DNA of 41,933 nt from Nodosilinea foveolarum (lineage in GTDB: Bacteria; Cyanobacteriota; Cyanobacteriia; Phormidesmidales; Phormidesmidaceae). This document shows positions 18,662 to 37,273 of the stretch, piece after piece (position 1 is the stretch's first letter; each line of letters starts with the position of its first letter). The stretch spans positions 1-41,933 of the forward strand of contig QBMC01000021.1 in assembly GCA_003242035.1 (NCBI GenBank). The letters run 5' to 3'. The notes under the pieces are model-generated. The model did no database searches. It worked only from the letters and a program-made list of their open reading frames with translations, and had not been told where the DNA came from. The position numbers were made by a program, and so were the translations under genes.

Positions 18662-20998
18662 TTACTCACTGGCGGAAGAGCGACGGCGACGGCGACGCAC
18701 GACTGGTTCCTCGATTGGCTCTTCCTCGGTTGGTGCATCTAACGTTACGGGCGTAGCCCTTTTAGGAGCTTCGATGGGAGCTGCTGTTGCTGCTTCAGAT
18801 GAGTTAGTCAGCTCATCACTCGGTGTATTCTTGCGGCTAGCGGAGCGTCTGCGCCTTCCAACCGGCACGTCGCTAGATAGCTCTTCAGTTTCACCGCTGC
18901 TACCGTTAAGCACTGGCGCTGCACGGTTATTCTCTGAAGGAGAAGCTCCGTCAGCGCTCTCAGTCTCAGTCGTTTGCTCGCTGTCCAATCGACTAGGCGT
19001 CTCTATAATTCGCTTTTGCGGGGGTGCTTTTTCCTCGTTGTCGGTGTCTTCTATCGCCGCAGTTGCCTGGGTTTCGGCCTGGAGTTTTTGTCGGAATGCC
19101 TCTGCTTCACCCGGCAATACAACCGAAATCAGAGCGTTCTGGGGATTCTCAACGGCTTGCTCGCTGAGAACTAGTGGTGAAACCCCCATAACTGCATAGA
19201 TCCGCTGCTGCTCTTCAGTCATCTCAACGACTACAATTTCTGGCGGCTCTTCTAGCTTACGGCGACTGTTACGAGTGCGTTTGGTTTTAGCGATTGTTGT
19301 TTCTACGGCAGCGTCATTGTCTTTCGGCTCTGGAGCTTCTGGGGTGCGCTCCTCATCATGACTGCTGACTTTGTCCTGGCGACTGACGCTGCGATCGCTT
19401 CTATCTCGATCTACTGTAATGGGGATCGTAGGCGAGCTAGAAGACCTACGACTTCGAGGAGGCCCATTATCCGAGCGACTGCCATTATCCGAGCGACTGC
19501 CATTATCCGAGCGACTATCTGATCGGCCATCGGGTTTTTGCCGACGACGACGGCGACCGCCGCGACCATTCTTATCTTGGTAGCTAGGATGATTCATTAG
19601 ATCTAGCTCTTGTGGCTCAGTCTGGGGTTCCAAGCTCAGGGGTCTATCTCTGTTATTGCTCTCTTTCGCAGAAGGACGATTGGAAAAGCTTTGCGAAGGT
19701 GAGCTATAACCTGTTCCGCGAGTAGGGACGGCTGACATCTGAATGGCCGCTACAGGCTCCTCGCCTGGAACATGTGCTAGGTGGCCTAAGCCGCCGCAGG
19801 TCGGGCAGGTCTGTCCAAACAGCTCGTAAACGTTTTGGCCCTGGCGTTTTCGAGTCAGTTCTACTAATCCCAACTCAGAGAGCTGCGATATTTGCGGCCT
19901 AGATTTATCGGGTCGAATAGCCTTGCCGAACATCTCTAGCACCTGCATCTGATCGCGGCGGGTGTCCATGTCGATAAAGTCAACGATAATGACGCCTGCA
20001 ATATTGCGCAGGCGCATTTGCCGCGCAATTTCAACGGCGGCTTCGCAGTTTGTCCAAAGCACCGTTTCGCGGGCTGTGGCTGAGCGAGTAAATGAGCCAG
20101 AGTTCACGTCAATAACGGTGAGTGCTTCAGTCGGCTCAATGATAATGTAACCGCCCGAAGGCAAGTCTACCCGAGGCTTAAGTGACTCGCGAATGGCCGC
20201 ATTAACGCGGAAGTACTCCAAAATGGGCGTCCGTTCTTTGTGGTAGTCGAGGAGGATGCCGGTGGGCACTCGACTGTCGTCACTCCAGCTCGTGAGATGC
20301 TTGCGAGTGCGCTCAAAGCCGCTTTCTGTGTCGGTAACGATGCGATTAACATCGTCGCTATAAACGTCGCGCAGTACGCGCTGAATGAAGTCGTCGTCTC
20401 GGTTGAGCAGGGACGGTGGCCGAGTTGCCATAGCCTCTGCTTGTACTGATTCCCAGCTACGCTGTAGCGTTTCGAGGTCTTCAATAATGGCGTCTTCAGA
20501 AACGCCTTCCGCTTCGGTTCTAATCAGCAGCCCCATACCGGGCGGTTTGACTAAAATACCGAGCGCTCTTAGCCGGTTACGCTCACTCTCGGTGCGGATG
20601 CGTCTAGAAAGATTAACGCCTTTGCTGTAGGGCATCAGCACTAAGTAGCGACCGGGCAGCGTAACTTTGCCTGTCAGCCGAGGACCTTTGTTCCCCGTTG
20701 GCTCTTTCATGATTTGAACAAGCACTTTTTGCTGCGGCACAATCAGCTCAGTGATTGGGCCAGCCATGCGTTTGAGCTTGAGCGGCCCCAAGTCGGAAAC
20801 GTGCATAAAGCCGTTTTTGTCTTTGTCGCCGATGTTGATAAAGGCGGCATCAATACTGGGGAGAATGTTTTCCACCGTACCCAAGTAGATGTCGCCTACC
20901 TGATGACTGCCGGTGGCAACGATAATCTCTTGGATCTGATCTTCTGAAAAAACAGCGGCTATGCGGTGCTGCTCTGCAATAACTATTTGCTTTGGCAT
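18662..20998 (-). CDS. rne: Ribonuclease E/G (RNase E)
   Basis: A 778-residue endoribonuclease for mRNA decay and rRNA/tRNA maturation. The S1 domain is at about 34-125 (VGDIYLGTVENILPSIDAAF). Catalytic Asp297 (VIDVNSGS) and Asp340 (IIVDFIDM) are 43 residues apart, as in E. coli. The Zn-link CPTC (Cys398, Cys401) supports tetramer formation. The catalytic part ends near 420; the rest is a disordered, charged tail with Arg-rich patches. The very C terminus has RRRRRRSSA, the motif reported to bind PNPase in cyanobacteria. Three 18-bp in-frame repeats (19464-19517) encode Ser-Asp-Asn-Gly-(Ser/Pro)-Arg-type units. ATG start with AGAGGAA before it. A long leader lies upstream. Confidence 0.97.
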   Translation of the reverse strand: MPKQIVIAEQHRIAAVFSEDQIQEIIVATGSHQVGDIYLGTVENILPSIDAAFINIGDKDKNGFMHVSDLGPLKLKRMAGPITELIVPQQKVLVQIMKEPTGNKGPRLTGKVTLPGRYLVLMPYSKGVNLSRRIRTESERNRLRALGILVKPPGMGLLIRTEAEGVSEDAIIEDLETLQRSWESVQAEAMATRPPSLLNRDDDFIQRVLRDVYSDDVNRIVTDTESGFERTRKHLTSWSDDSRVPTGILLDYHKERTPILEYFRVNAAIRESLKPRVDLPSGGYIIIEPTEALTVIDVNSGSFTRSATARETVLWTNCEAAVEIARQMRLRNIAGVIIVDFIDMDTRRDQMQVLEMFGKAIRPDKSRPQISQLSELGLVELTRKRQGQNVYELFGQTCPTCGGLGHLAHVPGEEPVAAIQMSAVPTRGTGYSSPSQSFSNRPSAKESNNRDRPLSLEPQTEPQELDLMNHPSYQDKNGRGGRRRRRQKPDGRSDSRSDNGSRSDNGSRSDNGPPRSRRSSSSPTIPITVDRDRSDRSVSRQDKVSSHDEERTPEAPEPKDNDAAVETTIAKTKRTRNSRRKLEEPPEIVVVEMTEEQQRIYAVMGVSPLVLSEQAVENPQNALISVVLPGEAEAFRQKLQAETQATAAIEDTDNEEKAPPQKRIIETPSRLDSEQTTETESADGASPSENNRAAPVLNGSSGETEELSSDVPVGRRRRSASRKNTPSDELTNSSEAATAAPIEAPKRATPVTLDAPTEEEPIEEPVVRRRRRRSSASE
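19464..19517 (-). repeat. Three 18-bp tandem repeats in the rne tail
   Basis: CCATTATCCGAGCGACTG is present three times (19464-19481, 19482-19499 and 19500-19517; the last copy differs at one base). The units are in frame, so copy-number change would alter only the length of the disordered tail. Confidence 0.95.
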
Positions 20999-26538: not shown

Positions 26539-26589
26539 CATACAGTCTTTGAGTCCATACAGTCTTTGAGTCCATACAGTCTTTGAGTC
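26539..26589. repeat. Three perfect 17-bp tandem repeats upstream of tig
   Basis: CATACAGTCTTTGAGTC is repeated head to tail three times without mismatch (26539-26555, 26556-26572 and 26573-26589), ending 47 bp before the tig ATG. Lying downstream of the candidate promoter, they would be in the tig 5' leader. Confidence 0.97.
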
Positions 26590-26636: not shown

Positions 26637-28271
26637 ATGAAAGTTACTCAGGAAAATTTGCCCGATAGCCAAGTCGGACTGGAGATAGAAGTTCCCGCAG
26701 ACTTGTCTAAGCAAGGCTACGAAAAAGTGTTGCGTGACTATATGAAGTCGGCCAACATTCCTGGGTTTCGTAAGGGTAAAGTGCCTCGCCAGATTCTCAT
26801 TCAGCGCATCGGCACAATGCAGCTTAAAGCGGCAGCGCTAGAAGAAATTGTCCAGTCTGTGATTGAAAAGGCTATTAAGCAAGAAGAAATTGACGCACTG
26901 GGCAACTACCAGTTGCAGTCGAACTTCGAGGAGCTGATGGGGACTTACAAGCCGGGTGAACCTTTCACGCTGTCGGCTTCTGTGGACGTACCGCCTAGAG
27001 TAAAGCTCAGCGAGTACAAGGGGCTTTCTGTGCAGGCTGAAGAGATCAAAACCAAGGAAGGCCGTGTTGACGAAACGCTAGAGGGCTACCGGGAGAATCT
27101 GGCTACTTTGGTGCCTGTAGAAGATAGAGTGGCCAAAGAAGGCGATGTCGCCGTTGTAGACTTTGTGGGCAAGGCTGAGAACGCTGAAGGCGAAGTGGAA
27201 GCTTTCGACGGGGGAAGCGCCCAAGACTTCCAGGTCGAGATTAGCGAAGGCAAGTTTATTCCTGGCTTTGTAGAAGGCATGGTGGGAATGGAGCTAGAAG
27301 CCGAAAAAGACGTAGAAGTGACTTTCCCTGAAGACTATCCTCAGGCTGAATTAGCGGGTAAACCAGCTACATTCACGATTACGCTGAAGGAGCTGAAGGA
27401 GAAAGAACTGCCAGAAATTGACGATGATTTTGCTGAAGAAGTTAGCGAGTTTGAGACGCTCGAAGAGCTGCGTCAGTCCTTAGAAGAGCGCTATCAGAAA
27501 GAAGCGACCGATGCGACCGATGCGAACATCGACCAGGCTTTGCTTAATGAGTTGGTAAAGCATGTTGAAGCTGAGATTCCAAAGACTTTAATTCAGCGCG
27601 AAGTTGACTTCATTGTGACGCAGACCGCAATGCAGTTGAGCCGTCAGGGGATTGACCTAAGCAAGTTTTTGACCAAGGATTTGGTTGACAACATGCGTGA
27701 GAACGCTAAGCCTGAGGCTATTGAGCGCTTGAACCGAACGCTGGCGCTGGGTGAGATTGCTAAGCAGGAATCGCTTGCTATTACAGACGAAGAAGTAAAG
27801 GCTCGAACTGAAGAGATGATGGCTGAGGTTGATGATCCTAGCCAGGTCGATCCGGAGCGGTTGAATCAGGTCGTGAACGAGGATTTGCTGAAAGAGAAGA
27901 TTCTCGGCTGGCTGAAAGAAAACTCGAATGTTGAGCTAGTGCCTGAGGGGTCATTGGCTCCTGATGAAACGGAGGCCGGCGAGAGTGAAAGGGCGATCGC
28001 ATCTGACGGGACTGTAGACGTTGAGTCTGTAGAAGTGGCTGAAGAAACGGTTGAGACGCCTGAGGCTAAAGAAACGGCTGAGAATGAGAGCGAGGAAATG
28101 GTCTCTGAGTCTGCTGAAGTGCCAGCCGAAACTAAAGTAGCTGAGACTGAACCTGCTACATCCAAGGAACCCAAGGCTGAAAAAGCTAAGACTGAAAAAA
28201 CTGAAGGTGGGAATAAGAAGTCTAAGAAGAAGTCTAAGGGCGGGGCTAAGAAGCCTAAAGGTAAAAAATAG
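26637..28271 (+). CDS. tig: Trigger factor with long charged C-terminal tail
   Basis: A 544-residue ribosome-associated chaperone and peptidyl-prolyl isomerase. The ribosome-docking loop is GFRKGKVPR (43-51). The FKBP-type domain lies at about 165-245 (EGDVAVVDFVGKA, FIPGFVEGMVGM), and the helical C-domain follows to about 440. Usual length is 430-480; here residues 441-544 are an extra low-complexity tail, first acidic (Glu, Val, Ala, Thr) and then very Lys-rich (last 40 residues). ATG start. It is first in tig-clpP-clpX, with a 178-bp gap before clpP. Three 17-bp repeats lie just upstream. Confidence 0.96.
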   Translation: MKVTQENLPDSQVGLEIEVPADLSKQGYEKVLRDYMKSANIPGFRKGKVPRQILIQRIGTMQLKAAALEEIVQSVIEKAIKQEEIDALGNYQLQSNFEELMGTYKPGEPFTLSASVDVPPRVKLSEYKGLSVQAEEIKTKEGRVDETLEGYRENLATLVPVEDRVAKEGDVAVVDFVGKAENAEGEVEAFDGGSAQDFQVEISEGKFIPGFVEGMVGMELEAEKDVEVTFPEDYPQAELAGKPATFTITLKELKEKELPEIDDDFAEEVSEFETLEELRQSLEERYQKEATDATDANIDQALLNELVKHVEAEIPKTLIQREVDFIVTQTAMQLSRQGIDLSKFLTKDLVDNMRENAKPEAIERLNRTLALGEIAKQESLAITDEEVKARTEEMMAEVDDPSQVDPERLNQVVNEDLLKEKILGWLKENSNVELVPEGSLAPDETEAGESERAIASDGTVDVESVEVAEETVETPEAKETAENESEEMVSESAEVPAETKVAETEPATSKEPKAEKAKTEKTEGGNKKSKKKSKGGAKKPKGKK

Positions 28272-34301: not shown

Positions 34302-35195
34302 ATGGGCACTGTTTGGGAGCTGGATTTTTACTCCAGACCAATCTTGGATGAGCGCAAGAAAAAGCGCTGGGAGATTTTGATCTGCGAGGGCGTACAGGCG
34401 GTGGATGATAATCCTGAAGATCTGTTTCGCTACAGCAAGTACGTGTCGAATAATGAGGTGAACTCGGATCAGCTAAAGCAGGCTTTGGAAGAGGCGATCG
34501 CTCAATCTGGCAATCAACCTACCAAAGTTCGCTACTTTCGCTATCAGATGCAAAATATGATCAAGCGAGCCTGCGAAGAAGTCGGGCTGATTCCTTACCC
34601 GAGTCGCCGGACGCTTGCTTTACAGCGATGGTTGGAAGATCGCCAGGAAACCGTATATCCCAAGGAATCGGGCTATCAAGCTAGCGCTTCTCCTTCGGTT
34701 GCCAAGCCGCTAGAGGTAGTAAGTCCCTTGCCCGATGCGCTCAAGGGGCAACAATGGGCGCTTGTGACCTTACCGGCTGAAGCGTTCAAAGACATGGACG
34801 AGTGGGATATTGGTTTCGGTGAAGCTTTTCCGCTGGGCATGGCAGGCGTAGAGCCGGATACGCAAATTCCTGGATTTATTATCTATTCGTCTCGCGCTAC
34901 GGCCTTAGCCGCTTGGATGTCTGGGTTAGAGATCGCTGCGGTTAGAGCTGCGCAAGAAGAGTCTACGAACTATGCTTCTGGCAATACAGAGACGGCTCGG
35001 GTGCTGATGGATACGGGGACGATTGAAACCTGGCTGTTGGCTGATCTGGTCGGTGAGGAAACTCAGGCGGAGGGTCAGCGGTTTGAGGATGCGAAGCAGT
35101 CTGCAAACAATGTGCACTTCATCGCGGTGCAAGATAGTCCGGAGTCGGAGTCTTTTGCGGGATTTTGGCTGATGCAGTCGCGGGATTTTGGCTGA
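34302..35195 (+). CDS. Tab2/Atab2 family RNA-binding protein
   Basis: A 297-residue member of the family defined by Chlamydomonas Tab2 and Arabidopsis Atab2, which bind the psaB 5' leader and are needed for photosystem translation in plastids. The family start MGTVWELDFYSRPILDERKKKRWE is split by no gap and followed by KVRYFRYQMQNMI, LIPYPSRRTLALQRWLEDR, and near the C terminus ETWLLADL and SFAGFWLMQS. An AAGGA lies just before the ATG. The function in cyanobacteria is inferred to be translation of photosystem mRNAs. The stop codon overlaps the start of the next gene (TGATG). Confidence 0.92.
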   Translation: MGTVWELDFYSRPILDERKKKRWEILICEGVQAVDDNPEDLFRYSKYVSNNEVNSDQLKQALEEAIAQSGNQPTKVRYFRYQMQNMIKRACEEVGLIPYPSRRTLALQRWLEDRQETVYPKESGYQASASPSVAKPLEVVSPLPDALKGQQWALVTLPAEAFKDMDEWDIGFGEAFPLGMAGVEPDTQIPGFIIYSSRATALAAWMSGLEIAAVRAAQEESTNYASGNTETARVLMDTGTIETWLLADLVGEETQAEGQRFEDAKQSANNVHFIAVQDSPESESFAGFWLMQSRDFG

Positions 35196-35197
35196 TG
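35157..35197 (+). repeat. 18-bp direct repeat at the tab2/permease junction
   Basis: GCGGGATTTTGGCTGATG occurs at 35157-35174 and 35180-35197, a 23-bp period. Because 23 is not a multiple of three, the two copies are read in different frames by tab2 and, if its frame is extended back, by the permease gene. Confidence 0.95.
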
Positions 35198-36031
35198 GTG
35201 GGCGAGCGCAGTAGCTGGATTAAATCGACTTTGATGTATTTGCTGCTGGGGGGAATTGCGATCGCCATGCTGCTCCCATTGCTCTGGATGGTTAGCACCG
35301 CGTTCAAATCGCCGAGCGAAGATATTTTCCAGTTTCCGCCTCAGTTCATTCCTAGCTCGCCCACTTTCGAGAACTTTGTGGCTGCTTGGGAGAGTGCACC
35401 GTTTGGCCGGTATTTTTTCAATAGTTTGGTGATTGCGATCGCCACCGTAGTCCTCAACCTCATTCTGTGTTCATTAGCCGCTTATCCATTAGCTCGACTG
35501 AACTTTAAAGGCCGTGAAATCGTTTTCTCCTTGGTCGTCGCCACCATCCTGATTCCCTTTCAGATTGTGATGATTCCGCTATACATTTTCGCCGTTCGGC
35601 TAGGACTTCTCAACACCTATCTGGGCGCAATTTTTCCCTCCATTGCCTCCGCCTTCGGCATTTTTCTAATGCGTCAGGCATTCCAAACCGTGCCCAAAGA
35701 ATTGGAGGAAGCCGCCCGCATAGATGGCTGTAGCGAACTTGGCATTTGGTGGCACATCATGATTCCGTCAGTTCGTCCGGCGCTAGTGACGCTGGCGCTC
35801 TTTGTCTTCATCGGCTCATGGGGCGACTTTCTCTGGCCGCTGCTGGTCTTAGACCGGCCAGAATATTACACCTTGCCGCTCGGTGTGAACCGTTTAGCGG
35901 GCAGTTTCTCATTCAACTGGCGACTGATTTCAGCCGGTTCAGTCATTTCAATTGTGCCGGTAATTCTTGTATTTATTGCGGCTCAACGCTACATCGTGCC
36001 GTCGGAAACGGGTAGCGGTGTGAAGGGGTAA
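35195..36031 (+). CDS. Carbohydrate ABC transporter permease (MalG type)
   Basis: A 278-residue inner-membrane permease with six membrane helices. The start is the ATG at 35195 inside TGATG, overlapping the tab2 stop; an upstream TTG at 35165 would repeat the tab2 end and is unlikely. LPLLWMVSTAFKSPSEDIFQFPPQF is the usual N-terminal MalG-family sequence and EAARIDGCSELGIWWHIMIPSVRPA is the EAA loop that contacts the ATPase. The family imports sugars or sugar derivatives with a MalF-type partner, a binding protein and an ATPase. None of these is in the window, so the substrate cannot be inferred. Confidence 0.92.
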   Translation: MVGERSSWIKSTLMYLLLGGIAIAMLLPLLWMVSTAFKSPSEDIFQFPPQFIPSSPTFENFVAAWESAPFGRYFFNSLVIAIATVVLNLILCSLAAYPLARLNFKGREIVFSLVVATILIPFQIVMIPLYIFAVRLGLLNTYLGAIFPSIASAFGIFLMRQAFQTVPKELEEAARIDGCSELGIWWHIMIPSVRPALVTLALFVFIGSWGDFLWPLLVLDRPEYYTLPLGVNRLAGSFSFNWRLISAGSVISIVPVILVFIAAQRYIVPSETGSGVKG

Positions 36032-36346
36032 TGGCGTTGCCGACTGGCGCAGAGCGATTTTCGAGCAATGCAGCAACGCTCCCGACTAGTGCAGAATGAT
36101 CCCCGAGCAGTGCAGTAACGCTCCCGACTAGTGCAGAGTCGTTCCCGGTCAGTGCAGAATGATTTTTGGGTAGTGCAGTATGACTTCTGGCTGGTGCGAA
36201 GCGATCGCAGACGAAATACGTCCATGCCCCAGATGCTCAGCTAGTCTGACCAATGCAGCATCTGCTCTATCCTTACGTTCTATCTCCTCAAGCTCCACAG
36301 ATCGCTACTATAAAGGCAGTGAATAAAACAGGACGATAGCTCAGCT
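36032..36346. other. Repeat-bearing spacer after the permease gene
   Basis: 315 bp, most of it taken up by the 21-bp repeat array at 36046-36213. The last 130 bp carry the upstream region of the SDR39U1-like gene; no convincing promoter or ribosome-binding site was seen there. Confidence 0.5.
36046..36213. repeat. Array of about eight 21-bp tandem units
   Basis: Consecutive 21-bp units start at 36046, 36067, 36088, 36109, 36130, 36151, 36172 and 36193. Units 3-7 all begin AGTGCAG, for example AGTGCAGAATGATCCCCGAGC without its last base; the first and last are more degenerate. Even units resemble even ones (36067 and 36109 share GCTCCCGACT). On the minus strand the array is open in one frame and reads as heptapeptides such as SFCTDRE, RLCTSRE, RYCTARG and SFCTSRE. 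Confidence 0.93.
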
Positions 36347-37273
36347 ATGAAAATTGCCGTTACGGGTGCTACGGGCTTGGTGGGTACTCGCTTGGTCGAG
36401 CGTTTGATTGATGAAGGCCACGATGTGCGGGTGTTTACGCGCAGTGTAGAGAAGGCTCGCCGGGTGTTTGCTGCGCCGAAGTATAAGCAGTCGGTGGAGT
36501 ATGTCGCCTATACCCCCACAGAGTCGGGCGATTGGCAAAAGGAAATGTCGGGTTGCGATCGCGCCATAAACCTAGCAGGCGAACCCATCTCCGAACGCTG
36601 GACGGCTGAGCGTAAGCAGCGCATTCTTAACAGCCGCAAGCTAGGCACTCAAAAGCTAGTAGAGGCCATCGTCCAAGCAGAGCCTAAACCCACTGCGCTG
36701 ATTAGCGGATCTGCGATTGGCTTTTACGGCACCAGCGAGTCGGCAGAGTTTTTTGAGACGAGCGAACCGGCTGAGAATGACTTTCTTTCACAGGTTTGTC
36801 AGGCATGGGAAGCGGAGGCTAATAAGGCTAAGGATGCGGGTGTTCGAGTGGCGATTATTCGCACTGGAATTGTGCTGGGTGATGGGGGAGGCGCGATCGC
36901 CAAAATGCTTACTCCCTTCAAGCTCTATGCGGGTGGACCTATTGGCAGCGGTCGCCAATGGTTTTCTTGGATTCATATAGATGACCTGGTAAATCTATTT
37001 ATTCAGGCGCTGCTGGATACTTCCATGCACGGCGTCTACAACGGCACCGCACCGAATCCATTACGGATGAAAGAATTTTGCGAAACTTTGGGCGAAGTTT
37101 TAGATCGTCCGTCTTGGCTACCGGTTCCCGATTTTGCGATTGAGGCGCTGTTGGGTGATGGTGCAGTTGTGGTGCTGAAAGGTCAAAAGGTGCTGCCAGA
37201 AAGAACGCAGGCATCCGGATTTTCCTTTGAGTATGACGAAGCTAAAGAGGCCATTAAACAAGTTGTGAGCTAG
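36347..37273 (+). CDS. TIGR01777 family SDR protein (SDR39U1-like epimerase)
   Basis: A 308-residue extended short-chain dehydrogenase/reductase fold. The NAD(P)-binding start is MKIAVTGATGLVGTRLVERL. INLAGEPISERWTAERKQRI and NSRKLGTQKLVEAI are signature stretches of the TIGR01777 family (YfcH, human SDR39U1), followed by SGSAIGFYGT and the PIGSGRQWFSWIHIDDL segment. The C-terminal 50 residues form the DUF1731 domain. Enzymatic activity is unknown; a plant relative is linked to cell division or chloroplast development by memory only. The 3' end overlaps the cobB stop by 4 bp (convergent). Confidence 0.9.
   Translation: MKIAVTGATGLVGTRLVERLIDEGHDVRVFTRSVEKARRVFAAPKYKQSVEYVAYTPTESGDWQKEMSGCDRAINLAGEPISERWTAERKQRILNSRKLGTQKLVEAIVQAEPKPTALISGSAIGFYGTSESAEFFETSEPAENDFLSQVCQAWEAEANKAKDAGVRVAIIRTGIVLGDGGGAIAKMLTPFKLYAGGPIGSGRQWFSWIHIDDLVNLFIQALLDTSMHGVYNGTAPNPLRMKEFCETLGEVLDRPSWLPVPDFAIEALLGDGAVVVLKGQKVLPERTQASGFSFEYDEAKEAIKQVVS

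Follow-up and report, generated by a model that had tools for sequence, protein, structure and literature searches.

The spacer between an ABC transporter permease gene and an SDR epimerase gene of Nodosilinea foveolarum holds an array of 21-bp units that is non-coding and that belongs to a family of arrays whose home position is immediately upstream of genes for PQLLE family proteins, a linkage that extends across several phyla. We give odds of roughly two in three to the explanation that these arrays are DNA platforms to which protein binds and that the copy described here is an orphan of the family. By "the window" we mean the whole stretch of DNA that was analysed, 41,933 nucleotides in length; the features discussed are collected in Table 1.

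Table 1. Features of the permease-SDR region and copies of a second repeat. Positions refer to the window unless a locus is named.
Feature	Position	Strand	Basis
ABC transporter permease (BPD_transp_1), ends where the array begins	35165..36031	+	Pfam
Frame of 78 codons with ATG, suggested as a Cys microprotein, not regarded as a gene	35989..36225	-	ORF list, coding tests
Degenerate first unit, overlaps the permease stop codon	36028..36048	+	Unit table
Eight tandem units of 21 bp (consensus GCAGAAnnnTTCCCGACYAGT) that alternate in part as a 42-bp dimer; family member without a gene ("solo")	36041..36208	+	TRF, lag identity, BLASTN, profile
Region upstream of SDR gene, genus-conserved, TCGCTACTAT..AATAAAACAGGA..TAGC.CAGCTATG	36302..36346	+	Seen with and without array
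SDR epimerase (Epimerase + DUF1731), follows the array	36347..37273	+	Pfam
Copies of second dispersed repeat	L026 1031-1108; L032 403-479; L027 1740-1783 (reverse complement); L034 975-1003 (reverse)		

A non-coding array family in the genus

The initial annotation had placed eight units of exactly 21 bp at 36046-36213; the array is real, although its register lies a few bases away from that given (Table 1). TRF reports it at 36062-36197 with periods of 21 and 42, corresponding to about two helical turns for the 21-bp unit, and the top 147-bp lag-21 score is 88 at the array as against 63 elsewhere in the window. Two unit types do alternate in part, as had been noted, with a lag-42 identity (0.67) that exceeds the lag-21 value (0.59). 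The degenerate first unit may be ancestral flank and not array, comparable bases being present after the permease in the array-free genome G001. The conserved segment directly ahead of the SDR gene is probably its promoter and would be independent of the array, within which neither a terminator nor a promoter was found. Two other short repeats occur in the window, a perfect 17-bp direct repeat present three times (CATACAGTCTTTGAGTC, 26539-26589), located outside any ORF and just upstream of ORF 26637-28271, and almost three perfect 18-bp repeats (CCATTATCCGAGCGACTG, 19464-19516) within ORF 18662-20998.

A second array in the same genome (G000:C6) matches that of the window with a BLASTN value of 2e-8, and searches with a consensus at the protein level, followed by a DNA profile, located additional arrays at G000:C2 and G000:C83 and in the sister species G002, G003, G004 and G007. 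Judged by these matches the window unit is a member of a small dispersed array family of the genus. The solo arrays are recovered by a profile for which only PQLLE-linked arrays were used and which matches the window at 36036-36106 (6.6e-4) and 36121-36185 (0.012); its best non-array match, at 0.013, is near the 6.6e-4 of the window, and with G000:C6 scoring 1.7e-11 the relation of the window array is stronger only through C6. Among 386 genomes of the phylum strong array matches were obtained only for G000, which contributed to the model, and G007, and a phylum scan for the GAACnnTTCCCG core returned just two unrelated genomes. A genus-wide excess of 21-bp repeats was ruled out, with only the family arrays present in 349 kb of G000 and none at threshold in 400 kb of G007. 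Two 27-bp arrays (G060:C13:157394-157764 and G069:C6:35180-35473; L123 and L124) share the AACGGTTCCCGG core with the 21-bp family, and a second dispersed repeat (GTCAAAATCGCCATYACCTC..CCCGTAGAGA) is located near several arrays in variable position and orientation (Table 1).

The array had been put forward as a possible Cys/Arg-rich microprotein encoded on the minus strand, and a plus-strand protein of PTSAERF-like heptapeptides can be considered as well. The minus-strand frame is indeed exactly as described, 78 residues from an ATG start with a Cys in nearly every unit, and of six arrays counted in the genus four have no stop in the plus-strand heptad frame. In the window, however, the plus frame is interrupted by three TGA codons, and of five related arrays two have stops in the Cys frame (one in G000:C2, two in G004:C38), which has lost its Cys in both G003 arrays; no open frame is common to the six family arrays of the genus. 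An open frame, it had been cautioned, does not prove coding. Among permutations of the 21 columns that retain composition and divergence 96% have at least one open frame, and the two open frames of the window array lie below the permuted mean of 2.3, so that the openness does not exceed chance. The comparison of synonymous and nonsynonymous change that had been recommended offers no help to the microprotein either, pN/pS lying within the column-permutation null in all six frames, and conservation shows no 3-bp periodicity. Periods of 41 and 43, incompatible with any reading frame, are found upstream of PQLLE genes (see below). A protein encoded on either strand was rejected on the basis of the stops, the lost Cys, pN/pS and the missing 3-bp period, and we consider it extremely unlikely. 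A first attempt at finding relatives, in which genome contigs were scanned with the heptapeptide consensus, had given no matches.

Linkage to PQLLE genes across phyla

In the genus and its sister genus arrays directly precede a PQLLE gene, in divergent orientation, at G000:C83, G000:C2, G003:C3 and G007:C1. The gene adjoining these home arrays is assigned to NCBIfam NF052641, PQLLE family protein, with 238-258 bits relative to a cut-off of 80 (237.8 bits, against the curated cut-off of 80, for the G000:C83 gene, which lies outside the window) and has no Pfam match. The model of NF052641 names only the protein. PQLLE genes are rare, occurring in 5 of 64 genomes of the taxonomic family and in 2 of 386 phylum genomes (G000 and G007). 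The copy at the C2 array (G000:C2:6804-7444, L188/L189) is broken: its two parts overlap, lie in different frames and contain stops.

When public genomes were scanned with a PQLLE alignment, 16 loci were obtained, of which the 13 that are non-duplicate and have upstream DNA were tested; the phyla reached are Cyanobacteria (including Candidatus Cyanaurora), Bacteroidetes/Ignavibacteria MAGs, a KSB1/Phycisphaerae MAG contig and Chloroflexi (Kouleothrix). Within 800 bp upstream of PQLLE a period-21/42 array is present at 11/13 loci, or 9/13 without L193 and L203, which barely pass an array identity threshold (0.54) that was chosen post hoc. The corresponding numbers are 0/13 downstream, 0/44 in far flanks and 6/874 in background windows, one of the six being the C6 array. 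The upstream enrichment (Fisher) is about 5e-20 relative to a background of 5/873 and 4e-11 relative to the loci's own flanks, for loci that are not all independent. Arrays are also present at three additional PQLLE copies in G000 and G007, and the loci lacking a clear array are L202/L187, from a diverged subfamily, and L194. The top lags upstream of PQLLE are 21/42, with 41 and 43 each found once, and the distance from the end of the array to the PQLLE start codon is 24-170 bp in most loci.

Several features of individual loci were recorded as well. L196 and L197 are a single contig (K_merged contig_147921, same length) that has been assigned to two MAGs, one of KSB1 and one of Phycisphaerae, leaving its phylum uncertain. 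In a Bacteroidetes MAG a second tandem array, of period 40, follows the PQLLE gene (L199 3814-4098). A large 21-bp array, GAACCATTCCCGYAAGTTGTG, at G453:C1:2737863-2738271 (L150) has no 10.5-bp signal of conservation; its genome is from another taxonomic family, and no PQLLE gene was found in it. Cyanobacterial PQLLE leaders (L185, L191, L192, L193, L195, L200 and L205) share, between array and gene, a GGGCACYYTWAG-like motif approximately 40-55 bp before the start codon, possibly a promoter or operator element.

No third gene is conserved in common between unrelated PQLLE loci. PQLLE was not found in PLSDB plasmids, phages or IMG/VR, and a plasmid or phage origin was rejected on this account. 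Neither the PQLLE name nor an account of the upstream array was found in the open-access literature, nor was one of 21-bp cyanobacterial arrays; the association of array and PQLLE is a new result, with no earlier description found in that literature.

The AlphaFold2 model of PQLLE (pLDDT 90.8) consists of two tandem modules, each with a helix of ~56 residues, and the protein is predicted to be all-helical. Foldseek searches of the PDB and of viral libraries returned generic long-helix proteins only, none at E<=0.001, and neither a known DNA-binding fold nor a nuclease or transposase match was found. Many members are acidic (pI 4.7-6.6) and the family is not generally basic; in the LEGE 11477 protein, though, net charge is positive on the first of the long helices and on the linker. 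Direct binding of DNA by PQLLE is therefore plausible, and we would put the chance that PQLLE is the protein that binds the array at a little below even.

The coexistence of solo and gene-linked copies in one genome, the patchy distribution and the existence of an empty site recall REP-RAYT, and the array might then be a REP/MITE-like mobile repeat with PQLLE as its transposase-like partner. This is improbable in view of the lack of terminal inverted repeats or hairpins, of a predicted all-helical PQLLE without nuclease or transposase match and of solo flanks that are unlike PQLLE leaders.

Helical phasing and the history of the window copy

From lineage to lineage the unit sequences vary and the period is constant. 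Column conservation has a 10.5-bp component of 0.31, compared with 0.10 for the null (0/2000 permutations, seven separate lineages), which is seen also in the non-cyanobacterial locus L196, and four control arrays show neither a 10.5-bp nor a 3-bp component. A composition bias of ~11 bp is general in the genomes of cyanobacteria (PMC4132750); the present signal, by contrast, is one of conservation between units and occurs also at L196. Conservation peaks separated by 10.5 bp are as would be expected if contacts were confined to a single helical face, and the periods of 41 and 43 are compatible with DNA turns. The initial annotation had named, as an alternative to coding, a DNA element to which protein binds at successive turns of the helix, and it is this suggestion that agrees with the data: the two-turn period is kept while sequences change, and conservation recurs every 10.5 bp, from which we infer binding. 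The unit shows no general signal of dyad symmetry. Only when units are compared on the strand defined by the gene does their similarity track PQLLE protein identity (Mantel r 0.57, 0/5000; -0.09 for the reverse strand), which fits co-evolution of array and PQLLE but could also stem from co-inheritance alone.

The proximity of arrays to PQLLE start codons makes transcription possible, so that the array could act as RNA, be it a structured 5' leader, an antisense RNA or a repeat RNA. Folding of the window RNA is no better than that of shuffled sequences, however (z of +1.2 and +0.8 on the two strands), no Rfam family is found beyond a sub-threshold chance match, and a helical period with conservation on one face is a property of DNA; an RNA role is very improbable.

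For the window copy itself the support is weaker than for the family, with a profile match of 6.6e-4 and a 10.5-bp signal of its own that is not significant (P 0.14). In G001, from the same genus, permease and SDR genes are adjacent without an array, separated by 170 bp as compared to 315 bp in the window, so that the copy was either gained here or lost in G001, and conservation of the array at this junction is ruled out. It had been argued that absence elsewhere would mark the array as a local replication-slippage product. The absence holds for the G001 spacer, but because related arrays exist in the same genome and in sister species the window array is not purely such a product. Some solo arrays outlast speciation, as the NACHT-type gene that adjoins the C6 array is again its neighbour in a different species (G003:C185). 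In G005 the contigs that follow the permease and precede the SDR gene (L045 and L072) both enter the same other repeat (GCGGTGAGACCCTGCGTC..), and the permease-SDR spacer thus seems to collect or tolerate repeat DNA. The window contains no PQLLE gene or relic, and it is for this reason that we refer to the array as an orphan copy; nor is there a match to PQLLE leaders beside it. With relics missing and flanks unlike PQLLE leaders, the notion that solo arrays are PQLLE loci minus the gene was rejected.

The window copy may alternatively be a functionless minisatellite that derives from the family, arrived by recombination or transposition and is now subject to slippage expansion and decay. The array-free G001 spacer, the repeat tolerated in G005, the degenerate units, the non-significant 10.5-bp signal and the absence of an adjacent PQLLE gene are all in keeping with this. 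It is nevertheless unlikely, since the period and helical phasing upstream of PQLLE in several phyla are left unexplained and the solo array at C6 has kept its NACHT neighbour in a second species.

Proposed role and relation to known systems

If the arrays are protein-binding platforms, each 21-bp unit would present two conserved blocks 10.5 bp apart, and eight units about sixteen contacts on a single helix face. With PQLLE the array would then make up a two-part unit, pointing to a DNA-protein system of which no description was found. An array upstream of a divergent PQLLE gene would most likely serve the PQLLE protein, or a partner of it, as a cooperative operator or an anchoring site, probably controlling the gene or anchoring its product. 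The orphan in the window could be an additional dispersed site for binding, close to the SDR gene, or a relic that is losing function; an effect on the SDR gene, like protein binding, would be something that we infer. A more speculative proposal, and a somewhat unlikely one, is that PQLLE is a new type of sequence-specific DNA-binding or DNA-filament protein, whose two-module molecules would assemble along the approximately two-turn repeats, with lineage-specific units, shared geometry and orphan arrays as extra chromosomal docking sites.

In several phyla an uncharacterised gene family is in this way linked to an array in its upstream DNA, of which the spacing is conserved and the sequence is not, providing a concrete hypothesis for an unstudied family, namely that PQLLE binds its own array. 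If true, this would be a DNA-binding architecture for which no counterpart was found among solved structures. Through genome comparison, what appears to be a junk minisatellite can become recognisable as an orphan site, regulatory or structural.

Plasmid iterons and parC/ParR-type centromeres consist of direct tandem repeats that keep helical register and adjoin a small gene, and their units vary between systems; PQLLE arrays share these traits. In contrast to these systems the present arrays are chromosomal, include dispersed solo copies and have no conserved Rep or ParM/ParR-like neighbour, and the candidate partner is without a known DNA-binding fold and is absent from PLSDB. The window array, flanked by permease and SDR genes, is not in a plasmid setting, and its region has no DNA match in PLSDB. 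With REP/REPIN sequences and their RAYT genes the arrays have in common dispersed repeats of which a few copies adjoin one gene family; they differ in having no palindromes, no short hairpin-forming ones being found in the array, and in that PQLLE is not a transposase. In terms of NF052641, the window has no PQLLE gene and the gene at the home arrays is a clear member. The STRR sequences of cyanobacteria are intergenic tandem repeats of exact heptamers, and resemble PQLLE arrays in being intergenic tandem repeats in cyanobacteria. A 7-bp period is absent from the window array (lag-7 identity of 0.31 versus 0.59 for lag-21, k=3 power at null); the unit here is 21 bp, unlike that of STRR, and the architecture occurs also outside cyanobacteria.
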